Positions 4,175-61,100 of a stretch of DNA of 64,000 nt are shown here, in pieces. Position numbers and translations under genes: made by a program. The notes below the pieces were generated by a model, which was not told the DNA's origin, did not search any database, and saw only the letters and a program-made list of their open reading frames with translations. Numbering within the stretch: position 1 is the first letter of the stretch; each line of letters begins with the position of its first letter. Source of the stretch: Salana multivorans (lineage in GTDB: Bacteria > Actinomycetota > Actinomycetes > Actinomycetales > Beutenbergiaceae). The stretch is taken from contig NZ_RKHQ01000001.1 in the NCBI RefSeq assembly GCF_003751805.1, forward strand, positions 1,116,001 to 1,180,000, in the 5' to 3' direction.

Positions 4175-4942
4175 TCATCGGGTGAGCCAGCCGCCGTCGA
4201 CGGGGAGGATGGAGCCGTGGACGTAGTCCGAGGCGGGTGAGGCGAGGAACACCGCGGCGCCCTGGAGATCGGCGGGTGTGCCCCATCGTCCGGCGGGGAT
4301 GCGGGCGAGGATCTCGGCCGAGCGGGTGTCGTCGGCGCGGAGCTGGGCGGTGTTGTCGGTCGCGAAGTAGCCCGGGGCGATCGCGTTGACGTTGATCCCC
4401 AACCCGGACCACTCCGAGGCCAGGGCCCGGGTCAGGCCCGCGATCCCGGACTTCGACGCGGTGTAGGACGGGACGATCTTCCCGCCCTGGAAGGACAGCA
4501 TCGAGGCGATGTTGATGATCTTCCCGCCCTCGCCCCGCGCGGCCATGACCCGCGCCACGGCCTGAGACAGGTAGAACACCTTCGACAGGTTGAGATCGAT
4601 GACCTCCGCCCAGTTCTCGCTCGTGAAGTCGATCGCCGGCTCACGGCGAATGATCCCCGCGTTGTTCACCAGGACATCGATCCGCCCCGCCGTGCGCGCG
4701 ATCTCCTCCACCAGCTCACGCACCTGCTCCGGCGTCGCGGCGAGCAGGTCGGCCTGGATCGCCCACGCCCGCCGACCCAGCGCCTCGATGGCCTCGACCG
4801 CCTCCGGCGACCCGGTGCGGTCCACGATCACCACATCAGCCCCCGCCTGCGCGAGCGCGAGCGAGAACCCCAGGCCAAGCCCACGCCCGCCCCCGGTCAC
4901 GACCGCGACCTTCCCGTCCAGCCTGAACGCGTCCAGAATCAT
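4175..4942 (-). CDS. kduD: 2-deoxy-D-gluconate 3-dehydrogenase type SDR (KduD)
   Basis: A classical short-chain dehydrogenase of 255 aa, close to E. coli KduD (253). KduD reduces 2,5-diketo-3-deoxygluconate, the product of KduI, to 2-keto-3-deoxygluconate with NAD(P)H in the cytoplasm. The cofactor motif TGGGRGLG is at residues 16-23, NNAG at 93-96 and the catalytic Ser147, Tyr160 and Lys164 are present. ATG at 4942 is chosen because GGGAG lies just upstream, inside the alternative ATG at 4957. It is the last gene of the nine-gene leftward operon, directly after kduI. An SDR with related specificity is possible, but the kduI neighbour makes KduD the best call. Confidence 0.88.
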   Translation of the reverse strand: MILDAFRLDGKVAVVTGGGRGLGLGFSLALAQAGADVVIVDRTGSPEAVEAIEALGRRAWAIQADLLAATPEQVRELVEEIARTAGRIDVLVNNAGIIRREPAIDFTSENWAEVIDLNLSKVFYLSQAVARVMAARGEGGKIINIASMLSFQGGKIVPSYTASKSGIAGLTRALASEWSGLGINVNAIAPGYFATDNTAQLRADDTRSAEILARIPAGRWGTPADLQGAAVFLASPASDYVHGSILPVDGGWLTR

Positions 4943-4990
4943 CAGCTTCTCCCTCATCAACCCTCGTCAGTCCCGATCGGCCCGCGCCGC

Positions 4991-5812
4991 TCAGCGCAGC
5001 CCGAGCGGGTCCACACCCTCGACGTCGCCGTAGTCCACGTTCTCCCCGGCCATCGCCCACACGAACGAGTACGCCCCCGTCGCCGAAGCCGTGTGGATCG
5101 ACCACGGCGGAGACACCACCACATCCCGCTCGTGCAGCACCAGATGACGCGTCGCGTCCGGGCGACCCATCAGATGCACCAGCACGTCCTCACCCAACCC
5201 CGTGTACAGGTACGCCTCCGTGCGCCGCGGGTGCACGTGCGGCGGCATCGTGTTCCACACCGACCCCGGCTCCAGCGTCGTGATCCCCAGCACCAGCTGG
5301 TTCGACGCGATCCCGTCAGCATGGATGTACTTGCGGATCGTGCGGTGGTTGGACCGCTCCGCCGACCCCAGCACGACCGCCTCCACACCCTCACGCGAGG
5401 CCAGCTCCGCACTCCCACGATGATGCGCCGGCGCCGAGACCAGGTACACCGCGCCCTCACCCGCCAACGTGACGTCCCGAGTCCCCAACGGCAGGTAGAG
5501 CACGTCCTGCTCACCCAGACCGAACACCTCACCATCCGCGCTCACCTCGACCCGGCCCGCGACCCCGACCAGACCCAGCTCACGCCGCTCCAGCAGGAAC
5601 TCCGCCCCGATGATCTCCGGCGCCTCCAACCTCACCAGCACGCCAGCCTCCACGACCACCCCACCGATCAGCAGCCGATCATCGTGCGCATACCCCCACG
5701 ACACCTCCCCCGGGGTGAACAACCCCGACAGCACGAACCGCTCACGCAGCTGCCCACCATCGAGACGGGCGACATCATCGGGGTGCGAGCTCCACAGACG
5801 GGTGACGGACAT
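4991..5812 (-). CDS. kduI: 5-dehydro-4-deoxy-D-glucuronate isomerase (KduI)
   Basis: A cupin-fold isomerase (273 aa; E. coli KduI 278) that converts 5-keto-4-deoxyuronate, formed spontaneously from the unsaturated uronate released by GH88, into 2,5-diketo-3-deoxygluconate. The zinc site is visible: His192 and His194 in MPPHVHPRRTEAYLY, Glu199, and His240 in PPWSIHTAS. ATG at 5812 is preferred over ATG at 5830 because GAGG lies seven to eight bases ahead of it within the codons of the longer reading; the longer start would overlap the FAH-family stop. It lies between the FAH-family gene and kduD in the uronate operon. Confidence 0.93.
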   Translation of the reverse strand: MSVTRLWSSHPDDVARLDGGQLRERFVLSGLFTPGEVSWGYAHDDRLLIGGVVVEAGVLVRLEAPEIIGAEFLLERRELGLVGVAGRVEVSADGEVFGLGEQDVLYLPLGTRDVTLAGEGAVYLVSAPAHHRGSAELASREGVEAVVLGSAERSNHRTIRKYIHADGIASNQLVLGITTLEPGSVWNTMPPHVHPRRTEAYLYTGLGEDVLVHLMGRPDATRHLVLHERDVVVSPPWSIHTASATGAYSFVWAMAGENVDYGDVEGVDPLGLR

Positions 5813-40902: not shown

Positions 40903-40910
40903 ATGAGTGT

Positions 40911-41011
40911 CTCCATCGGTCCTGGCGTGAGCACCCTTCCCCGCGGGAGGCTTCCGTTGAGGGGTTGCTGCGGCGTCGACGAGCCAGGTCTCTCGGCCGC
41001 TCTGGATGGTG
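40911..41011 (-). ncRNA. SAM-I (S-box) riboswitch upstream of metF-metE
   Basis: On the minus strand the leader shows the S-box core: AGAGCGGCCGAGAGACCTGG, then GCAGCAACC and GGTGCTCACGCCAGGACC, closed by P1 arms CCATC (41009-41005) and GATGG (40917-40913). The order of conserved blocks and the kink-turn-like GAGAGA segment match S-box leaders. It should lower metF and metE expression when S-adenosylmethionine is abundant. Confidence 0.87.
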
Positions 41012-41117
41012 TCTGGAGAGTAGCGCGGGCGACGGGCGGTGGTCCAGATGCCGGGCTGCGGTCCGCATGTCGAGACGTGCCGGCGCCCGCGACGCGGGTC
41101 CGGCGCCCTGACCCGAA

Positions 41118-51566: not shown

Positions 51567-52226
51567 CTAGGACAGCCGGTGGACGGCGTCGGCGAGGCGG
51601 TCGACCTCGTCCGCGTCGTGGCTGACCAGCACGCACGGGATGCCGGCGCCGGCCACCGCCTCTCGCACGAGCGCGCCGAGCTCGGACCGGCCATCGGCGT
51701 CGACCGCCGCGAACGGCTCGTCGAGCAGCAGCGCGCGCGGCTCGGCCGCGAGCGCCCGGGCCAGCGCCACACGCTGGGACTGCCCGCCCGAGAGGCGGTC
51801 GGCCCGGCGGTGCGCCAGGTCGCCGACGCCGAACCGCTCCAGCCACCGCTGCCCCGTCGCGCGCGCCACGGCGCGTCCGGCGCCGGTCGACCGCGGACCG
51901 AACGCCGCGTTCTCCAGCGCGCTCAGGTGCGCGAACAGCACGTGCCGCTGCGGGACCAGCCCCACGCCGCGCTCCTGCGGCGGCAGGAAGGTCGCCGACG
52001 ACGGCGTGACGCGCGCGAGCACGGTGCCGTCGAGCTCGATGCGCCCGGCCGCCAGGGGCAGCAGCCCGGCGATCGCGTCGACGAGCGTCGACTTGCCGCG
52101 TCCGTTCGGGCCGACGAGCGCGAGCACCCGGCCGGCCGGGACGGCGAAGGAGGCGGCGATCTCGGCGGTCCCCCGGCGCACGACGACGCCGTCGAGCACG
52201 AGGCCGCCGGGCGGCGGCGCGGTCAT
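51567..52226 (-). CDS. modC: Molybdate ABC transporter ATP-binding protein, short form
   Basis: A 219-aa ABC ATPase with Walker A VGPNGRGKST, signature LSGGQSQRVALARAL and Walker B ALLLDEPFAAVD. It lacks the C-terminal molybdate-binding (TOBE/MOP) domain found in the usual ModC of about 350 residues; a MOP-like domain is encoded instead at 53973. It powers molybdate import by ModB. ATG overlaps the modB stop (ATGA). It is the last gene of the mod operon and is convergent with the DUF937 gene. Confidence 0.9.
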   Translation of the reverse strand: MTAPPPGGLVLDGVVVRRGTAEIAASFAVPAGRVLALVGPNGRGKSTLVDAIAGLLPLAAGRIELDGTVLARVTPSSATFLPPQERGVGLVPQRHVLFAHLSALENAAFGPRSTGAGRAVARATGQRWLERFGVGDLAHRRADRLSGGQSQRVALARALAAEPRALLLDEPFAAVDADGRSELGALVREAVAGAGIPCVLVSHDADEVDRLADAVHRLS

Positions 52227-53110
52227 CCCGTCCTCCCGAGCGCGGTCAGCCAGTGCGAGCGCAGCAGCACGAGGACCACGGCGCAGATCGTCATGAGCAG
52301 CACCGACATCGTGAGCGCCGCGGCCGGGTCCTGCTGCATCGCGAGGTAGATGGCGATCGGCATCGTCCGCGTCGTGCCGGGGAAGTTGCCGGCGAACGTG
52401 ATCGTCGCGCCGAACTCGCCGAGCGCGCGGGCGAAGCACAGCACCGCCCCGGCGCCGATCGCGGGTGCGAGCCGCGGCAGCGTGATCCGGCGGAACACGG
52501 TCCACTCCGACGCGCCGAGCGTGCGCGCCACGTCCTCCTGGCCGCGATCGAGCCCGCGCAGCGCGCCGTCGACGGAGAGGACGAGGAACGGCAGCGCGAC
52601 GAAGGCCTGGGAGAGGACGACCGCCGCGGTGGTGAACGGGATGGACAGCCCGAACCACTGGTGCAGCCACTGACCGACGATCCCGCGCCGGCCGAGCAGC
52701 GACAGCAGGGCGACGCCGCCGACCACGGGCGGCAGCACCATCGGGAGCGTGACGAGCGCCCGCACGACCCCGGTGCCGCGCAGCCCGCCGCGGGCCAGCA
52801 GCCAGGCGAGCGGGACGCCGACGACGAGCCCCACGAGCGTCGCGAGCGACGCCGTGCGCATCGAGAGCACGAGCGCCTGCAGGACCGGCCCGTCGCCGAG
52901 CACGGACAGCAGCCGGCCCCAGGGGGCGCGCGCGACGATCGCGAGCAGCGGCAGGACGAGGAACGCGAACGCCAGGCCGCCCAGCACCAGCAGCGGCCAC
53001 GGCGCGTGCGCCCGGCCGCCGCGGCGCCCGCGCCCCGCGTCCGGGGTCGTGCCGCCCGGGTTGGCGCCGCCCCCGGACGCCCCGACCCGGCTCACGCCTC
53101 CTCGGCTCAC
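52223..53110 (-). CDS. modB: Molybdate ABC transporter permease
   Basis: A 295-aa permease with about six helices. VLPPVVGGVALLSLLGRRG, VALPFLVLSVDGALRGLDRGQEDVARTLGASEWTVFRRITLPRLAP (the ATPase-contact loop) and FARALGEFGATITFAGN are ModB signatures. The N-terminal 45 residues are Gly/Ala-rich and cytoplasmic. GTG at 53110 overlaps the modA stop (GTGA), which I prefer; GTG at 53095 is an alternative but its Shine-Dalgarno-like GGAGG sits too close. The frame upstream is a shadow of modA. Confidence 0.92.
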   Translation of the reverse strand: MSRGGVSRVGASGGGANPGGTTPDAGRGRRGGRAHAPWPLLVLGGLAFAFLVLPLLAIVARAPWGRLLSVLGDGPVLQALVLSMRTASLATLVGLVVGVPLAWLLARGGLRGTGVVRALVTLPMVLPPVVGGVALLSLLGRRGIVGQWLHQWFGLSIPFTTAAVVLSQAFVALPFLVLSVDGALRGLDRGQEDVARTLGASEWTVFRRITLPRLAPAIGAGAVLCFARALGEFGATITFAGNFPGTTRTMPIAIYLAMQQDPAAALTMSVLLMTICAVVLVLLRSHWLTALGRTG

Positions 53111-53976
53111 CGGGGCGGGGAGAACCCGGCGGCGTCCAGCACGGCCCGGCCGTCGGCCGAGAGCACGAGGGCGACGAACGCGGCCGCGGCGTCGGGGTTC
53201 GGGGACTCGCTCAGCACCGCGATCGGGTAGTCGTTGACCGCCTGGCTCGCCTCGGGGAACTCGATGGTCGTGATGCCGTCGCCGCCGACGATCGCGTCCG
53301 TGCGGTAGACGAGCGTCGCATCGACCTCCCCCTGCTCCGCGAGCGTGAGGGCGGCGCGGACGTCCTCGGCGTAGGTGTCGACGGACGGGGTGATCCCGAG
53401 CGTCTCGAACACCTTGGCCGACAGCGCCCCGCACGGGACCTCCTCGGCGCACACGGCCAGGCGCAGATCCTCGCGGGCGAAGTCCGCGATGCCGGTGATG
53501 CCCGCCGGGTTGCCGGCCGGGGTCACGATGACGAGCGTGTTCGTGGCGAAGTCGGCCGGGTCGACCGCCAGGTCGCCCACCTGCTCCATCGTCTTGGCGG
53601 AGGCCGTCGCGAGCACGTCGGCCGGCGACCCGGCGAGCACCTGCTCCGCGAGCGCCGAGCTGGCCGCGAAGCTGAAGCTCACGGTCAGGCCGGGGTTCTC
53701 CTCCTCGAGCTGGGCGCCGAGCTCGCCGAACGCATCGGTGAGCGAGGCGGCGGCCAGCACGACGAGGTCGCCGGTGAGCGAGGCGTCGACCTGGTCGGAA
53801 CCGTCGACCGACGCGCTCTCGGACGCCGTGCCGGCGTCGTCGGTCGAGTCCGCGGCGGCACCCGAGGAGGCGTCGCCCGACGGCGACGACGCCGGGGACG
53901 ACGTGCAGGCCGCGAGCCCGACGGACAGTACGGCGGCGAGTGCCAGCGCGCCGGTGCGGCGCGTGGAGGTGATCAT
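53107..53976 (-). CDS. modA: Molybdate-binding lipoprotein
   Basis: A 289-aa substrate-binding protein. The lipoprotein signal ends LAAC with Cys24, followed by an Asp/Ser-rich linker. The mature fold has LVVLAAASLTDAFGELGAQLEEE, FSFAASSALAEQVLAGSPADVLATAS (oxyanion-binding serines) and DATLVYRTDA. It captures molybdate or tungstate for ModBC. ATG overlaps the stop of the upstream regulator (ATGA), and its stop overlaps modB, so the whole mod operon is coupled. Confidence 0.94.
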   Translation of the reverse strand: MITSTRRTGALALAAVLSVGLAACTSSPASSPSGDASSGAAADSTDDAGTASESASVDGSDQVDASLTGDLVVLAAASLTDAFGELGAQLEEENPGLTVSFSFAASSALAEQVLAGSPADVLATASAKTMEQVGDLAVDPADFATNTLVIVTPAGNPAGITGIADFAREDLRLAVCAEEVPCGALSAKVFETLGITPSVDTYAEDVRAALTLAEQGEVDATLVYRTDAIVGGDGITTIEFPEASQAVNDYPIAVLSESPNPDAAAAFVALVLSADGRAVLDAAGFSPPR

Positions 53977-54383
53977 CCGATTCCCTCGATTCCCAGGTTG
54001 GTTGCCTTGACGGTGGCCGCGACGAGGCTGCCGGGCGCGAGCTCGAGCTCGTCGGCCGCCTCGCGGGAGATGAGGGAGACGAGGCGGTAGGGACCGGCCT
54101 GGACCTCGACCTGCGCCATGACGCCGTCGCGCAGGACGCGGGTGACGATCCCGCGCAGGCGGTTGCGCACGCTCGCGGGCGCGAGCGGGCCGAGGTCGGC
54201 GAGGTGGGAGTCGGACGCCTCCTCCTCGGCGAGGCGGGCGACCTCCTCGCCCGCGATCGTCGCGACGCCGGCGGCGTCGGGGGAGGTCTCGATGTCGCGC
54301 TCCGCCAGGCGCCGACGGACGGTGTCCGTGCTGACGCCGAGCAACGCAGCCGCCTCGGCGATCCGCAGTCTTCGTACGCTCAT
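53973..54383 (-). CDS. HTH (excisionase/MerR-like) plus MOP/TOBE molybdate-binding protein
   Basis: A 136-aa protein joining a helix-turn-helix (residues 1-45: LRIAEAAALLGVSTDTVRRRLAERD) to a single molybdopterin-binding MOP/TOBE domain (about 70-136: VRNRLRGIVTRVLRDGVMAQVEVQAGPYRLVSLISREAADEL). It probably senses molybdate and controls the mod genes, and may also supply the regulatory MOP domain that the short ModC lacks. ATG 54383 begins the HTH; the open frame extends 12 codons upstream without ribosome-binding site. It overlaps modA by ATGA. Confidence 0.88.
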   Translation of the reverse strand: MSVRRLRIAEAAALLGVSTDTVRRRLAERDIETSPDAAGVATIAGEEVARLAEEEASDSHLADLGPLAPASVRNRLRGIVTRVLRDGVMAQVEVQAGPYRLVSLISREAADELELAPGSLVAATVKATNLGIEGIG

Positions 54384-54432
54384 GCGCCGACTAAACCCGG
54401 TTCGAGACGCATTTGCCACCGGTGATCCCGTG

Positions 54433-54486: not shown

Positions 54487-54789
54487 TCAGCCCAGGCGGG
54501 TGATCCGCACGTGCCACTCCTCGGGCCCGCGCTCGAGGTAGCCCACCTCGATCGGCGCCAGCTCGCGGAGCTGGGCGAGCAGCGGGAGCGGGTCGTGCGG
54601 CGCGACGATCACGAGGGACGAGCCGGGCGGCGTCGCACCGAACGCCCCGAACACCGCGCCGTGCCGGATCGCGTGCGGGATGGGCCGCACGTCGAGGACG
54701 GGGTCGGCGTCGTCGTGCGCGCACCCGCAGGTGTGCCCCTCCGCCCGACCGGGCTGGGAGGTGTGGAGCTGGACGTCCTGCTGGACCAT
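54487..54789 (-). CDS. DUF2249 domain protein
   Basis: A 100-aa soluble protein with the DUF2249 pattern: VLDVRPIPHAIRHGAVFGAFGATPPGSSLVIVAPHDPLPLLAQL and the C-terminal WHVRITRLG. A GHTCGCAHDD segment near residue 20 could bind a metal. DUF2249 proteins are common next to nitrate, nitrite or NO metabolism genes; their function is not settled. It is the last gene of the nar operon, 39 bp after narI, before the terminator. Confidence 0.82.
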   Translation of the reverse strand: MVQQDVQLHTSQPGRAEGHTCGCAHDDADPVLDVRPIPHAIRHGAVFGAFGATPPGSSLVIVAPHDPLPLLAQLRELAPIEVGYLERGPEEWHVRITRLG

Positions 54790-54828
54790 GAGGGGCCTTT
54801 CGCGTGGGGGATGGGGTCGGGCTCGGCG

Positions 54829-55641
54829 TCAGGGGCGGCGCGACGGTCCCGTCGGACCCGTCCGGCCGGTTCCGGTGCGTCCGGACTCGGCGCGCGTCGG
54901 CGCCGGCAGGCCAGCGGGGACCCAGCCCGGACGGGACGGCCGGGCGGCGGGGTCGCGACGCGGGTCGCGCGAGCGGTAGACGACGTACGGCCGCACGAGG
55001 TAGCCGATCGGCGCCGACCACACGTGGACGAGCCGGGTGAACGGCCACATCGCGAACAGCACCATCGCGCTCATGATGTGCGCCGTGAACATGCCCGGCA
55101 CCTGGGACATGAGCTCGATGTCCGGCTGGAACACGATGAGGCTGCGGAACCACGGCGAGATCGTGCCGCGGTACTCGTAGCCGCCCCCGAAGATCTGCAC
55201 GAGCACGGTCGCCGCGGTGCCGAACAGGAGCGTCGCGCCGAGCACGACGAACATCACCTTGTCCGAGACGGTCGTGGCGAGGAACACCGAGCGCGTGGTG
55301 CGACGCCGGTAGACGAGGATCACGAGCCCCGACAGCGTCATGACCGCGGCGATCGTCCCGAGCACCATCGCGCCCAGGTGATACGCGTGCTCGTCGATGC
55401 CGATCGCCGACAGCCACTCCCGCGGGACCAGGAGACCGACGACGTGGCCGCCGGCCACCATGAGGATGCCGAAGTGGAACAGCGGCGAGCCGATCCGCAG
55501 CAGCCGCTTCTCGTAGACCTCGCTCGACCGGGTGGTCCAGCCGAACTTGTCGTACCGGTACCGCCAGACGTGACCGACGACGAAGATGGCCGCCGCGATG
55601 TACGGCACCACCCCGAACATCACGATGTGGAGCTGGTTCAT
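54829..55641 (-). CDS. narI: Respiratory nitrate reductase gamma subunit
   Basis: A 270-aa cytochrome b subunit with five membrane helices, starting MNQLHIVMFGVVPYIAAAIFVVGHVWRYRYDKFGWTTRSSEVYEK. It takes electrons from menaquinol and anchors NarGH. Haem-ligand histidines are visible in PLFHFGILMVAGGHVVG and in GMFTAHIMSAMVLFAMWPFTRLVHVWS. A Pro/Arg/Thr-rich tail of about 30 residues extends the usual length (about 225-245). ATG overlaps the narJ stop (ATGA). Confidence 0.96.
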   Translation of the reverse strand: MNQLHIVMFGVVPYIAAAIFVVGHVWRYRYDKFGWTTRSSEVYEKRLLRIGSPLFHFGILMVAGGHVVGLLVPREWLSAIGIDEHAYHLGAMVLGTIAAVMTLSGLVILVYRRRTTRSVFLATTVSDKVMFVVLGATLLFGTAATVLVQIFGGGYEYRGTISPWFRSLIVFQPDIELMSQVPGMFTAHIMSAMVLFAMWPFTRLVHVWSAPIGYLVRPYVVYRSRDPRRDPAARPSRPGWVPAGLPAPTRAESGRTGTGRTGPTGPSRRP

Positions 55642-56453
55642 GCCTCGCCTCCCGCGTCGGGGCCCTCGTCCGGGCGCATGGTGGGGAACGGGAGCAGCGG
55701 TGCCGCGAGGCCCACCATCTCCCCCGGTGGCCCCTCGGACAGCAGCGCGAGGAACCGGTCGATCGTCTCCTGGGGCATCTCCGGGAGCGTGCGGCACACC
55801 GCGTCGAGCACGGCGGCGTACGGCGAGCCGACCTGGTGCAGCGCCGAGCGCAGCAGCTCGACGCCCTGGCGGTGCGCGGCGAGCAGGACGGCCGCGACGT
55901 CCCGACCACCACGCGCGGACATCTCCAGGACGAGCGGCAGGTGGTCCGGAAGCTCCCCCGTCGGCACCTCGAACCCCGCGGCGGCGAACGCCTCGGCGAA
56001 CGTCACGAGCGCCATCCCCCGCCGGCGCGTGTCGCCGGAGGAGTAGAAGGACAGGTGCAGCGCGCAGCGTCGGCGCAGGTCGAACGTCGCGACGTAGTGC
56101 GCGGCGAGCTCGGCGTCGCCCCACTCGCCCGTCCGGTCGAGGAAGGACGCGAGGTCCGCCGCCACCTGGCCCGGCAGGCCGCCGACCGCGGCGTGCACGG
56201 ACTCCTCGCGTCGCGCGCGGCCCTCGTCGGGGTAGGCGAGCAGGAGGGCGGCGGCGAGATGGACGACGCCGGTCTCCCCGGCCGTCAGCCCCTCCTGCGG
56301 GGCGAGGAACGGCAGCGGGGCGCGAGTGCCGGAGCGCGGGGCTGGCGTCACCGGCTCGAGCCGCTGCGGCCCGTCGGGGACGCGCGGGGCGCGCGGGCCG
56401 AGCCCGAGCGTGCGGCCGATCGGGCCCTCGAGCAGCGTCGTGAGGCGGCTCAT
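55638..56453 (-). CDS. narJ: Nitrate reductase assembly chaperone
   Basis: A 271-aa protein of the NarJ/TorD chaperone type that binds NarG for cofactor insertion. VVHLAAALLLAYPDEG, the family hallmark HYVATFDLRRRCALHLSFYSSGDTRRRG and PDHLPLVLEMSA are visible. The first 45 residues are a Pro/Arg-rich extension absent from the E. coli protein. It overlaps narI and narH by ATGA on both sides. Confidence 0.95.
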   Translation of the reverse strand: MSRLTTLLEGPIGRTLGLGPRAPRVPDGPQRLEPVTPAPRSGTRAPLPFLAPQEGLTAGETGVVHLAAALLLAYPDEGRARREESVHAAVGGLPGQVAADLASFLDRTGEWGDAELAAHYVATFDLRRRCALHLSFYSSGDTRRRGMALVTFAEAFAAAGFEVPTGELPDHLPLVLEMSARGGRDVAAVLLAAHRQGVELLRSALHQVGSPYAAVLDAVCRTLPEMPQETIDRFLALLSEGPPGEMVGLAAPLLPFPTMRPDEGPDAGGEA

Positions 56454-58174
56454 CGGTGCTCGTCCCCGCCGTGCTCGTCCCCGCGGGACGCCTCGGGCCC
56501 CTCGCCGTAGCCGGGCTCGCCGGGCCGGGGTGGGAAGACCCCGGCGGGCGGCTCGCCGGCCGCCGTGTCCCAGTTGAGCAGGTTGACCCGCGAGGCGGTC
56601 GGGATCGTGTCGGCGCGCTGGCGCGCCTTGAGAGCGTGGAAGCTCTCGACGGTGGCGCGCATCGGCGTCCCCGACGAGGACCCGAACGGCCCACCGACGC
56701 CGCGCGGTCCACCCATCCCGGGACCGCCATCGACGTCGAGCGAGCAGCCCGAGCCCAGCTCCTCCAGCTCGCGCGCGGTCTCGACGTGCGCCGTCGGGAT
56801 GACGTAGCGGTCCTCGTACTTGGCGATCGCCAGGAGCCGGTGCATCTCCTCGATCGTCGCGCCGTCCATCCCGACGCTCGCGGCGATCCGCGGGTCCTGC
56901 TCCGTCCCGAGGTTGACGTTGCGCATGTGCGCCCGCATCGCCGCGAGGCGCTGGAGCGAGGCCACGACCGGCTCGGGGTCGCCGGCGGTGAACAGCTCGG
57001 CGAGGTAGCCGATCGGGATGCGCAGCCGGTCGATCGCGTGGAACAGGGTCGGCGCGTCCTCGCCGTCGTTCCCCGAGTCCGTGACGACGTCGACGACGGG
57101 CGACAGCGGCGGCACGTACCAGACCATCGGCAGCGTCCGGTACTCCGGGTGCAGCGGCAGCGCCACCTCGTAGACCGAGATGAGCTTCCAGATCGGCGAG
57201 TTCTGCGCCGCCTCGATCCAGTCCTCCGCGATGCCGTCTCGGCGGGCGGCCGCGACCACCTCGGGGTCGCGCGGGTCGAGGAAGACCGAGCGCTGCGCCT
57301 CGAGCAGGGCCGTCTCGTCCGTGACCGATGCGGCCTCCAGCACCTTGTCCGCGTCGTAGAGGACGAGGCCGAGGTAGCGCAGGCGTCCGACGCAGGTCTC
57401 GGAGCAGACCGTCGGCTGCCCGACCTCCAGGCGCGGGTAGCACATCGTGCACTTCTCGGCCTTGCCGGTGCGGTGGTTGAAGTAGACCTTCTTGTACGGG
57501 CAGCCCGTCACGCACATCCGCCAGCCGCGGCAGGCGTCCTGGTCGACGAGGACGATGCCGTCCTCCGCCCGCTTGTACATCGCCCCCGACGGGCACGACG
57601 CGACGCACGCCGGGTTGAGGCAGTGCTCGCAGATGCGCGGCAGGTAGAACATGAACGCGTTCTCGAAGTCGTTCTTGACCCGCGCGCTCATCTTCTTCAG
57701 GACGGGGTCGTCCTGGAGGTACTCCCCGCTGCCACCGAGGTCGTCGTCCCAGTTGGCCGACCAGCGGATCGCCATGTCCTCGCCCGTGAGCAGCGACTTC
57801 GGCCGGGCGACCGGCGTGTGCTCGCCCTGCGGGGCGGACAGCAGCATGTCGTAGTCGTAGGTCCACGGCTCGTAGTAGTCGTCGATGTCCGGCAGGACCG
57901 GGTTGGCGAAGATGTTGAGCAGCTTGCTGAACCGACCCCCGGCCTTGAGCTTGAGCCGTCCGCGGCGGGTCAGGGTCCACCCGCCCTCCCACCGGTCCTG
58001 GTCCTCGTAGGTGCGGGGGTAGCCGAGGCCGGGCCGCGTCTCCACGTTGTTGAACCAGACGTACTCCATGCCGGCGCGGTTGGTCCACGCCTGCTTGCAG
58101 GTGACGGAGCAGGTGTGGCAGCCGATGCACTTGTCGAGGTTCATCACCATCGACATCTGGGCCATGACACGCAT
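56450..58174 (-). CDS. narH: Respiratory nitrate reductase beta subunit
   Basis: A 574-aa iron-sulfur subunit. Four cysteine clusters are present: CIGCHTCSVTC (residues 17-27), CEHCLNPACVASCP, CRGWRMCVTGCPYKK (the Trp marks the [3Fe-4S] site) and CTMCYP with CSETC. It passes electrons from NarI to NarG. The C-terminal 90 residues are Gly/Pro/acid-rich and longer than in E. coli NarH (512). The ATG shares one base with the narG TGA (TGATG). Confidence 0.97.
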   Translation of the reverse strand: MRVMAQMSMVMNLDKCIGCHTCSVTCKQAWTNRAGMEYVWFNNVETRPGLGYPRTYEDQDRWEGGWTLTRRGRLKLKAGGRFSKLLNIFANPVLPDIDDYYEPWTYDYDMLLSAPQGEHTPVARPKSLLTGEDMAIRWSANWDDDLGGSGEYLQDDPVLKKMSARVKNDFENAFMFYLPRICEHCLNPACVASCPSGAMYKRAEDGIVLVDQDACRGWRMCVTGCPYKKVYFNHRTGKAEKCTMCYPRLEVGQPTVCSETCVGRLRYLGLVLYDADKVLEAASVTDETALLEAQRSVFLDPRDPEVVAAARRDGIAEDWIEAAQNSPIWKLISVYEVALPLHPEYRTLPMVWYVPPLSPVVDVVTDSGNDGEDAPTLFHAIDRLRIPIGYLAELFTAGDPEPVVASLQRLAAMRAHMRNVNLGTEQDPRIAASVGMDGATIEEMHRLLAIAKYEDRYVIPTAHVETARELEELGSGCSLDVDGGPGMGGPRGVGGPFGSSSGTPMRATVESFHALKARQRADTIPTASRVNLLNWDTAAGEPPAGVFPPRPGEPGYGEGPEASRGDEHGGDEHR

Positions 58175-61100
58175 CAGTACGTCACCTCCTGCGAGCGACG
58201 ACGGATCGTCGTCACCTCGTCGCGCTGGTTGCCGGTCGGTCCGAGGTAGTTGAACGCCCAGGAGAGCTGGGCGTACCCGCCGATGAGGTGGCTCGGCTTG
58301 AGCAGCACCCGGGTGAGGGAGTTGTGGATGCCGCCGCGCAGGCCCGTCGTCTCGGAGCGGGGGACGTCGACCGTCCGGTCCTTCGCGTGGTACATGAACA
58401 CGGTGCCCTCGGGCATCCGGTGGCTGACGATGGCCCGCGCGACGACGACGCCGTTGCGGTTGTAGGACTCGATCCAGTCGTTGTCCTTGACGTCGATCTT
58501 CGCGGCGTCCGCCTGCGACATCCAGATCGTCGGGCCGCCGCGGGAGAGCGCCAGCATGAACAGGTTGTCCTGGTACTCCGAGTGGATCGACCACTTCGAG
58601 TGCGGCGTGAGGTAGCGGACGGCGACCTCGGCGCGACCGTCCGACCCGGCGACGCCGGTCGCGTCGCGCGACCCGACGCGCGCGTCGCCGAACAGCCGGT
58701 GCATGTCGAGCGGCGGTCGGTAGACCGGCAGGCCCTCGCCCAGCTCCGTCATCCAGTCGTGGTCGAGGTAGAAGTGCTGGCGACCGGTGAGCGTGTGCCA
58801 CGGCCGGGACCGCTCCGTGTTGATGACGAACGCCGAGTAGCGCCGGCCACCGTGCTCGCTGCCGGACCACTCCGGGGACGTGATGACCGGCGTCGGGCGG
58901 GCCTGGACGTCGGCGAACGTGATCCGCGTGCCCGCGTGGTCCTCGGCCAGGTCCGCGAGCCGCGTGCCCGTCTTCCGCTCGATGTCGCGGAAGCCCTCGA
59001 CGGCGAGCCGGCCGTTCGTCGTCCCCGACAGCCGCAGGATCATCTCGCACACGTGCTGCGGGGTGGTCAGGCGCGGCTGCCCGGCCGCGACGCCCGACTC
59101 GACGACGCCGTTCTTCCGGCGCAGTTCCTCGATCTCCGGCGTCGCCGTGTAGGCGACCGACTTGGTCACCATGCCGAGCTTCTCGGTCAGCGGGCCGAGC
59201 GCGCCCCACTTCTCGTGGAGCTGCGTGTAGTCGCGCGGGACGACGACGAGCTTCGGCATGGTCCGGCCCGGCACCAGCTCCTGCGTCGGGCGCACCTCGC
59301 CGCGCGGGTAGGCGAGCTCGTCCGGGGTGTCGTGCTGCAGCGGCGCGGCGACGAGGTCCTCGACCGTGCCGTCGAGGTGGCCGCGGGCCAGCCGGGAGAC
59401 CTCCCTCGACAGCAGCGCGTAGATGTCGAAGTCCGTGCGCGTCTGCCACGGCGGGTCGATCGCCGCGTTGAACGAGTGGACGTAGGGGTGCATGTCCGTC
59501 GTGGACATGTCGTACTTCTCGTACCAGGTCGCCGCGGGGAGCACGACGTCGGAGAACAGCGTCGTGCTGGTCATCCGGAAGTCGCTCGTGACGAGGAGGT
59601 CGAGCTTGCCGCGCGGCACCTCGTCCGTCCACTCCATCGAGACGGGGCGACGCTCGGGTCCGGACTCCTGCGCGAGCACGGAGGAGTCGGTGCCGAGCAG
59701 GTGGCGCAGGAAGTACTCGTTGCCCTTGCCAGAGGAGCCGAGGATGTTGGCGCGCCAGATGTTGAGGACGCGCGGGAAGTTCTCCGGCGCGTCCGGCGCC
59801 TCGCAGGCGTAGCGCAGGCGGCCGGCCTCGAGCTCGGAGACGACGTAGTCGGCGGGCTCGACCCCGGCCTCGCGCGCCGCGCGGGTCAGCTCGAGCGGGT
59901 TGCGGTCGAACGTCGGGTAGGAGGGCATCCAGCCGCGCTTGGCCGACTCCACGAGCGTGTCGGCCGTCGTGCGGCCGGCGAACACGCCGGTGGCGAGCGA
60001 CGAGGCGAGCGAGTCGGCCGGCAGCCCGTCGTAGCGCCACTGGTCCGTCGCGAGGTACCAGAACGCCGTGCCGATCATGTTCCGCGGCGGACGCCCCCAG
60101 TCCGCGGCGAAGGCGTACTGCGCCCAGCCGGTGACCGGGCGCAGCTTCTCCTGGCCGACGTAGTGCGCCCAGCCGCCGCCGTTGCGGCCCTGGCAGCCGG
60201 TCATCGTGGTGAGCGCGAGGAACGTGCGGTAGATCGCGTCGGAGTGGAACCAGTGGTTGGTCCCGGCCCCCATGAGGATCATCGAGCGACCCTGGGAGTC
60301 CCGCGCGTTCTGCGCGAACTCCCGGCCGATCCGGGCCGCGGCCGCCGCGGGGACCGACGTGATCTCCTCCTGCCAGGCCGGGGTGCCGGGCGTGCTCGCG
60401 TCGTCGTACCCGGTCGGCCAGGTTCCCGGGAGGGGACCCGTCGCGCCGTCGGCCCCGGTGCGGACGTCGCGACCGACGCCGTACTGCGCGAGCAGGAGGT
60501 CGAAGACGGTGGTGACGTACTCGTCGCCGACGCGGAACACGGGCACCCCGCGCCGGACGACGCCGCCGAGGCCCGTGTGCAGCTCCTCGTCGTCGGCATC
60601 GCCCGCGGCACCCGCCGGGCCGCGCGCGTCGCCCGCCGCGTCGTCGAGCGGACGGACGCCGGAGATGTCACCGGACCCGCCGCCCGGCACGAGGTCGAAC
60701 CGCGGCAGGTCGACGGCGACGGCGGTCCCGTCCCACGTCGCCAGGTCCGCGATCGAGAGGCAGGGGTCGAGGTCGCCGAGCTCGAGGTTCCACGTCCCGG
60801 CCTTCGCCGGGTCGAACCGGTGACCGAGCGAGCCGTTCGGCACGACGACGGTGCCGTCCGCGTCGAGCATCGTCGTCTGGAACGCGGCGTCCCGGTCCGT
60901 GCCGGGGACCGGCAGGTCGGCGGCGGTGAGGAACTTGCCGGGGACGTACGCGCCCGGCTCGCGCGGGACGAGCCGGACGAGGTGCGGGGCGTCGGAGAAC
61001 CGCGCGAGGTAGTCGGCGAAGTAGGGAGTGCGCTCCTGGACGAGGAACTCGCGCAGGATGACGTGGCCCATCGCCATGGCGAGCGCGCCGTCGGTCCCGG

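Follow-up and report, generated by a model that had tools for sequence, protein, structure and literature searches.

ModE, the regulator of the Escherichia coli type, joins a helix-turn-helix (HTH) domain to MOP domains and controls the molybdate transporter operon modABC in response to molybdate. A protein of similar composition, here called HTH-MOP, is encoded by the first gene of a modABC operon in Salana multivorans (Actinomycetales), on a stretch of 64,000 nucleotides (contig NZ_RKHQ01000001.1, positions 1,116,001 to 1,180,000; referred to as the window, whose numbering is used throughout). The evidence presented below suggests that HTH-MOP is quite probably a one-component sensor of molybdate (or tungstate) that controls its own operon, HTH-MOP-modABC, and that it very probably binds a predicted palindrome in the promoter region.

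HTH-MOP resembles ModE also in its fold (match to 1o7l) but differs in having another type of HTH and one MOP domain instead of two; no ModE model was found among its NCBIfam matches. TaoR, said to have been described by Rajeev et al. 2019, reportedly combines an excisionase-like HTH of the HTH_17 type with a periplasmic-binding-protein-like domain in metal oxyanion control. The HTH of HTH-MOP resembles the HTH_17 type, but its matches to the HTH_17 and excise profiles are below the cut-offs and its fold is of the MerR type; an effector domain like that of TaoR was not found in the profile search, which matched only TOBE and HTH. The storage proteins Mop, ModG, and Tungbindin share the MOP fold (Z 8-10) but, unlike HTH-MOP, are without a DNA-binding domain.

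The combination of an HTH with one TOBE domain is listed for gut microbes as “TudE/ModE-like” and assigned to regulation in a part of PMC11980592; it differs from HTH-MOP in that its HTH is called HTH-9 there, the name HTH-17 being used for TaoR-like proteins, and neither an operator nor a target is given in that part of the account. The modABC cluster of Desulfovibrio contains a chimeric gene of a phage-integrase domain and a MOP domain, with a predicted box of the form CGGTCACG-N14-CGTGACCG (passage in PMC545781). The chimera shares with HTH-MOP the fusion of MOP to a phage-related domain within a mod cluster but differs in that its partner is an integrase (PF00589). A ModE box (consensus from a passage of PMC545781) was not found in 350 bp at each of 175 loci with linked HTH-MOP and mod genes, the best site having 7 mismatches of 20. 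No actinobacterial HTH-MOP regulator came up among the titles and abstract openings of the open-licence literature searched, which is not proof of absence; the palindrome was likewise not found in a mod context in open-licence literature, and papers that spell it out look unrelated by title. New here is the predicted operator for HTH-MOP, whereas the architecture of an HTH with one TOBE domain had already been listed.

The HTH-MOP protein and its operon

The operon occupies positions 51567-54383 on the minus strand, in the order HTH-MOP, modA, modB, and modC.

53973..54383, minus strand: gene of the HTH-MOP regulator, 136 aa, ATG start, identified by Pfam and NCBIfam profile matches
54210..54371, minus strand: winged-helix DNA-binding domain of the MerR/excisionase type (residues 5-58), from hidden Markov model matches below the cut-off, structure model, and fold match
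53994..54173, minus strand: TOBE/MOP domain (residues 71-130), PF03459, E 6.8e-15
53107..53976, minus strand: modA, molybdate-binding protein, TIGR01256, 108.4 bits (cut-off 62.5)
52223..53095, minus strand: modB, permease, TIGR02141, 224.9 bits (cut-off 182.6)
51567..52226, minus strand: modC, ATPase of 219 aa without C-terminal TOBE domain, ABC_tran, E 2.2e-31; TIGR02142, 159.9 bits (cut-off 285)

The coordinates give overlaps of 4 bp between HTH-MOP and modA and between modB and modC. An alternative GTG start 12 codons upstream would extend HTH-MOP to 148 aa; the ATG is favored because the GTG and the edge of the operator would overlap.

A sequence-only reading had described the product of the first gene as an excisionase-like HTH joined to one MOP domain, and both halves are borne out by profiles and structure model. 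A single stretch of the protein, residues 71-130, passes the TOBE/MOP profile PF03459 (55.5 bits, cut-off 22.3), while the matches to the Mop profile TIGR00638 (49.3 bits, cut-off 55), to HTH_17 (residues 6-53; 22.5 bits, cut-off 27), and to the NCBIfam profile excise (residues 6-31; 22.4 bits, cut-off 28.8) stay under their cut-offs. The AlphaFold2 model, built with 54 sequences, comprises a winged helix and a beta barrel (predicted local distance difference test, 85.3; predicted template modeling score, 0.79) and is weakest around residues 61-71. Residues 4-62 align with winged helices of the MerR type (RacA, Z 8.9; CadR, 8.0; SoxR, 7.5; BldC, 7.2; pSK1 Par and NmlR are further best matches); for residues 70-136, the matches are ModG (best Z 10.4), ModE (10.1), and Mop (8.5). 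Z values under 8 may reflect a common arrangement.

Residues S18, D20, and R23 of the HTH and S71 and N74 of the MOP domain are invariant in 184 of 184 homologues; R73, K126, and T128 are present in 183. The oxyanion site of Tub is formed by Ser4, Arg6, and Lys60 (PMC11980592, in part), and it follows from the shape of the motif that S71, R73, and K126 of HTH-MOP should sit at the equivalent site.

TOBE matches at E <= 0.001 are confined to two places in the genome, namely the HTH-MOP gene and a 380-aa frame with a weak match. The suggestion of the sequence-only reading that the protein is an alternative to ModE is supported by the lack of a ModE over cut-off in this genome (TIGR00637: one match, 27.6 bits, cut-off 98.5) and by the conserved palindrome that marks the promoters of such operons. 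In a sample of 198 genomes from across the actinobacterial phylum, 49 had matches to both halves of HTH-MOP, and the protein is a candidate molybdenum regulator for many actinobacteria. In family f32 (G186, G309, G256, and others), the profile matches are mostly to the MOP half alone and fall in short frames, which are probably genes of lone Mop storage proteins.

A predicted operator upstream of HTH-MOP genes

The discovery set comprised the best 80 of 152 relatives of HTH-MOP, a choice that leans to close homologues; modA and/or modB lie close downstream of HTH-MOP (gene ends within 2.5 and 3.5 kb) at 72 of these 80 loci. The order sample comprised 149 genomes, 98 of them with HTH-MOP (100 reported matches, two of them inside ModC); 10 of the 98 are in family f1, and 83 of the 88 others were taken (G038, G053, G109, G114, and G157 were left out). 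A modB gene without HTH-MOP was present in 19 genomes, of which 17 were taken (G077 and G155 were left out). One record is common to the discovery and order sets (L013 = L159), and near-copies were retained (three pairs in the former, five in the latter). The HTH-MOP loci not linked to modABC are L007, L009, L010, L012, L043, L044, L046, and L050.

Any 4-mer dyad with a spacing of 0-12 was sought in the 160 bp that precede the start of HTH-MOP. The top dyad, CGCA-N2-TGCG, is present at 35 of the 72 linked loci among the best 80 relatives, whereas the best dyad in 20 shuffled sets reached 10. With the dyad fixed, exact copies occur at 16 of 20 loci of family f1 (shuffle mean 0.18, maximum 2) and at 53 of 83 order loci (shuffle mean 0.64, maximum 3; 52 of 82 without the shared record). 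If one mismatch is allowed, the counts rise to 67 of 72, 20 of 20, and 69 of 83 loci (shuffle means 11.9, 3.6, and 13.5). The palindrome has the form CCGCA-N2-TGCGG, and the fuller form of the operator is CCGCANNTGCGG. Exact copies are absent from the eight HTH-MOP genes away from modABC and from 16 mod loci without HTH-MOP; at up to one mismatch, the dyad is found at 2 of the 8 and 5 of the 16, which is the level of the shuffles.

These controls bear on the idea that HTH-MOP is mainly a Mop-like molybdate store with a vestigial HTH, the palindrome belonging to another regulator. Lone MOP domains do serve as stores, as in Tub/Mop (PMC11980592, in part), and matches to the MOP half only exist in the phylum, but the three HTH residues unchanged in all 184 homologues and the absence of exact palindromes from both groups of control loci make such a role quite improbable.

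The arrangement of the sites relative to the promoter argues further for HTH-MOP as a DNA-binding regulator. At 52 of 103 loci, a TANNNT hexamer starts 1-8 nt past the dyad (1.7 expected), and in 47 of 53 such cases 6-7 nt separate its end from the assigned start codon, a layout from which we infer a leaderless promoter with the operator across its -10/-35 region. Several loci amount to natural rearrangements of the operon. In G006 (L136), where an extra gene (about 4449-5218) separates HTH-MOP from modA, an exact site precedes the ATG of each of the two genes by 24 nt. At L179, L188, L189, and L197, the exact site lies 14-15 nt before the ATG read as the start of modA, and none is present upstream of HTH-MOP; L171 and L208 likewise carry an exact site between HTH-MOP and modA, where the start is less clear. 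Several of these loci are near-copies of one another.

A search of the 149 genomes for the composite motif CCGCANNTGCGG-N1-6-TANNNT gave 71 exact matches, 40 of them no more than 250 bp 5' of HTH-MOP and another 2 immediately 3' of it, ahead of modA. The other 29 matches are spread over genomes with HTH-MOP (16 in 98) and without it (13 in 51), and a wide regulon was rejected on these grounds. Since the reversed pattern has more matches overall (104 in the 149 genomes), only the concentration at HTH-MOP is telling, and HTH-MOP appears to act locally, on its own operon.

The window itself carries the following elements upstream of HTH-MOP.

54408..54417, minus strand: predicted operator, an imperfect copy GGCAAATGCG of CGCANNTGCG with one mismatch, centered 29 nt before the ATG
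54390..54395, minus strand: weak -10-like hexamer TTTAGT, assigned by eye; relatives have TCAGAT, TTCAGT, or TACGGT there

The site aligns with exact sites of G004, G005, G006, and Flavimobilis, and GCANNTGCG is the longest invariant run. In the genome of Salana, CGCANNTGCG is not enriched (158 matches, against 329 for the reversed pattern), and matches with two mismatches within the window are at chance level; for this genome, the predicted operator is supported by orthology rather more than by the site found there.

Several observations weigh against the binding of HTH-MOP to this palindrome and its proposed role. The exact dyad is missing upstream of HTH-MOP at 37 of 72, 4 of 20, and 30 of 83 loci, and even the form with up to one mismatch, which is frequent in shuffled sequences (means as given above), is missing at 5, 0, and 14 of them, respectively. 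Nothing close (3-4 mismatches of 10) was found at L016 and L065, both from Acidimicrobiia-type metagenome-assembled genomes (MAGs), and at L031 from a Chloroflexi MAG. The eight HTH-MOP genes that do not adjoin modABC and are without the exact palindrome encode an intact HTH. The window operator deviates at one position, stands without a second copy in phase, and is accompanied by only a weak -10 box. The palindrome appears short for a MerR-like dimer, the ligand may be molybdate or tungstate, between which the sequence does not discriminate, and the preference for repression over activation draws on the position of the site and on ModE. The predicted site is precise enough for a gel-shift test.

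Mode of control

The site position and the analogy with ModE suggest that HTH-MOP probably represses with molybdate. At high cytoplasmic molybdate, the MOP domains would pair and bind molybdate, and the paired winged helices would grip the palindrome at -10/-35 and block transcription of the often leaderless mRNA; at low molybdate, HTH-MOP would release the DNA and the transporter would be made. Alternatively, HTH-MOP might act in the fashion of MerR as an activator in the promoter spacer, switching the operon on when molybdate is scarce or being released by molybdate. The MerR-like winged helix and the position of half of the dyads just upstream of a -10-like box are in line with activation, but the variable position of the site, with a distance between its center and the start codon of 8 to 89 nt, fits occlusion better than a remodeling of the spacer, and the known analogue ModE is a repressor of modABCD, although an activator of moa as well (PMC11980592, in part). 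We therefore regard activation as unlikely.

Repression by HTH-MOP may involve more than one dimer. Pairs of sites (up to one mismatch) that are 31 or 32 bp apart occur at 17 of 72, 8 of 20, and 28 of 83 linked loci (53 of 175 in total; the set of 83 includes the window), whereas at most one locus had such a pair in any of 30 shuffles per set. Among 120 site pairs at distances of 10-130 bp, 60 are at 31-32 bp, 24 at 62-64 bp, and 2 at 93-96 bp, and seven loci have three sites in phase. Because 31-32 bp correspond to three helical turns, bound units would face the same side of the DNA, and where two or three palindromes are present, several dimers might occupy one face of the DNA in a cooperative manner. 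The lone TOBE protein Tungbindin assembles as a trimer of dimers, its oxyanion sites lying between subunits (PMC11980592, in part), and this hints at a hexameric core for HTH-MOP. We tentatively propose that a MOP trimer-of-dimers scaffold positions three pairs of winged helices, radiating from a single hexamer, to clamp two or three palindromes 31-32 bp apart on the same DNA face, so that occupation of the oxyanion sites at the subunit contacts builds the DNA-binding assembly. The three-turn phasing is an unexpected clue to how a MOP oligomer may be used on DNA.

ModC tails and genomic neighborhood

As stated in the sequence-only reading, ModC has 219 residues and no molybdate-binding C terminus: the protein ends about 17 residues past the H-loop, matches the ABC domain, and had no TOBE match in the Pfam profile search. 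The TIGR02142 cut-off (285) says little for this ModC, because it is passed by none of the 149 order genomes. The same reading went on to propose that molybdate sensing had been split off from the ATPase, so that the loss of the domain from ModC and its re-use in an HTH protein would be one event, a proposal that could draw on the joint occurrence of a short ModC and HTH-MOP in the window, in G004, G005, and G006, and at five Cellulomonas/Flavimobilis loci.

ModC proteins were classified by motif (S.RN; KA/KS/KG) as intact (both TOBE motifs present on a long tail), half-eroded, eroded, or short. Pfam found TOBE in 3 of 3 intact proteins, weakly in 2 of 6 eroded ones, and not in the one short protein tried, so some ModC proteins classed as eroded may have TOBE domains that are divergent yet functional. 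ModC was unscored at 18 HTH-MOP loci (8 of them unlinked to modABC) and one other. Across all loci scored, 95 of 166 ModC proteins encoded beside HTH-MOP keep an intact TOBE motif. The 84 order loci with HTH-MOP, including the window, have 41 intact, 26 eroded, 2 half-eroded, and 13 short ModC proteins (2 unscored), and the 17 order loci without HTH-MOP have 9 intact, 4 eroded, and 3 short ones (1 unscored). The presence of HTH-MOP is not associated with the state of ModC in these loci, neither for short (13 of 82 vs 3 of 16; Fisher p 0.72) nor for intact proteins (41 of 82 vs 9 of 16; p 0.79). At the 20 loci of the window's family, 14 ModC proteins are eroded, 1 is half-eroded, 1 is intact and long, and 3 are short (1 unscored); the three short ones are at the loci whose HTH-MOP is 70-74% identical to that of the window.

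Phylogeny points in the same direction. In a tree of 44 HTH-MOP and 45 ModC TOBE domains, one branch separates the two kinds (Shimodaira-Hasegawa-like approximate likelihood ratio test, 97), and HTH-MOP of the window stands beside those of G004, G006, and G005 of its own family; the tree is based on 65 columns and 89 rows, with 8 HTH-MOP rows chosen and 36 drawn, and ModC rows only with intact motif. The ModB tree requires five changes to explain short ModC proteins, four of them forced by starred branches, and places the window inside a starred set of seven rows that all have a short ModC. The informative pairs on a tree are too few to link ModC erosion with HTH-MOP. G023, among the nearest rows to the window in this tree, has a short ModC but no HTH-MOP match in its genome.

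A transfer of the domain from ModC is rejected by the many intact tails beside HTH-MOP, the equal frequency of short ModC proteins without it, the separate TOBE groups, and G023, and a single event of loss and re-use is very improbable. The separate TOBE groups and the lack of association instead argue for HTH-MOP as a lineage of its own, with the ModC tail decaying independently; the shortening of ModC looks like a separate, recurrent loss. The tempting story of a lost transporter domain turned sensor is thereby corrected. TOBE-mediated shut-off of transport is known in some ModC proteins, and the separate loss in the window's lineage would permit transport without it.

At L179, L188, L189, L194, L197, L254, L236, L241, L244, L247, L248, L249, and L153, which include loci with and without HTH-MOP, the best ModB and ModC matches end in one open frame, which suggests fused modBC genes.

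The sole Rfam match of the window is a distant S-adenosylmethionine riboswitch (40910-41012, minus strand; 53.4 bits), and a molybdenum cofactor riboswitch as a means of control was rejected, none having been found at 13 other loci either. The mod operon is immediately preceded, on its own strand (54487-60040, minus), by a DUF2249 gene and by genes for the beta, delta, and gamma subunits of nitrate reductase (identified by Fer4_11/Nitr_red_bet_C, Nitrate_red_del, and Nitrate_red_gam). Such surroundings, with genes of a molybdoenzyme, fit a role of the operon in molybdate supply.

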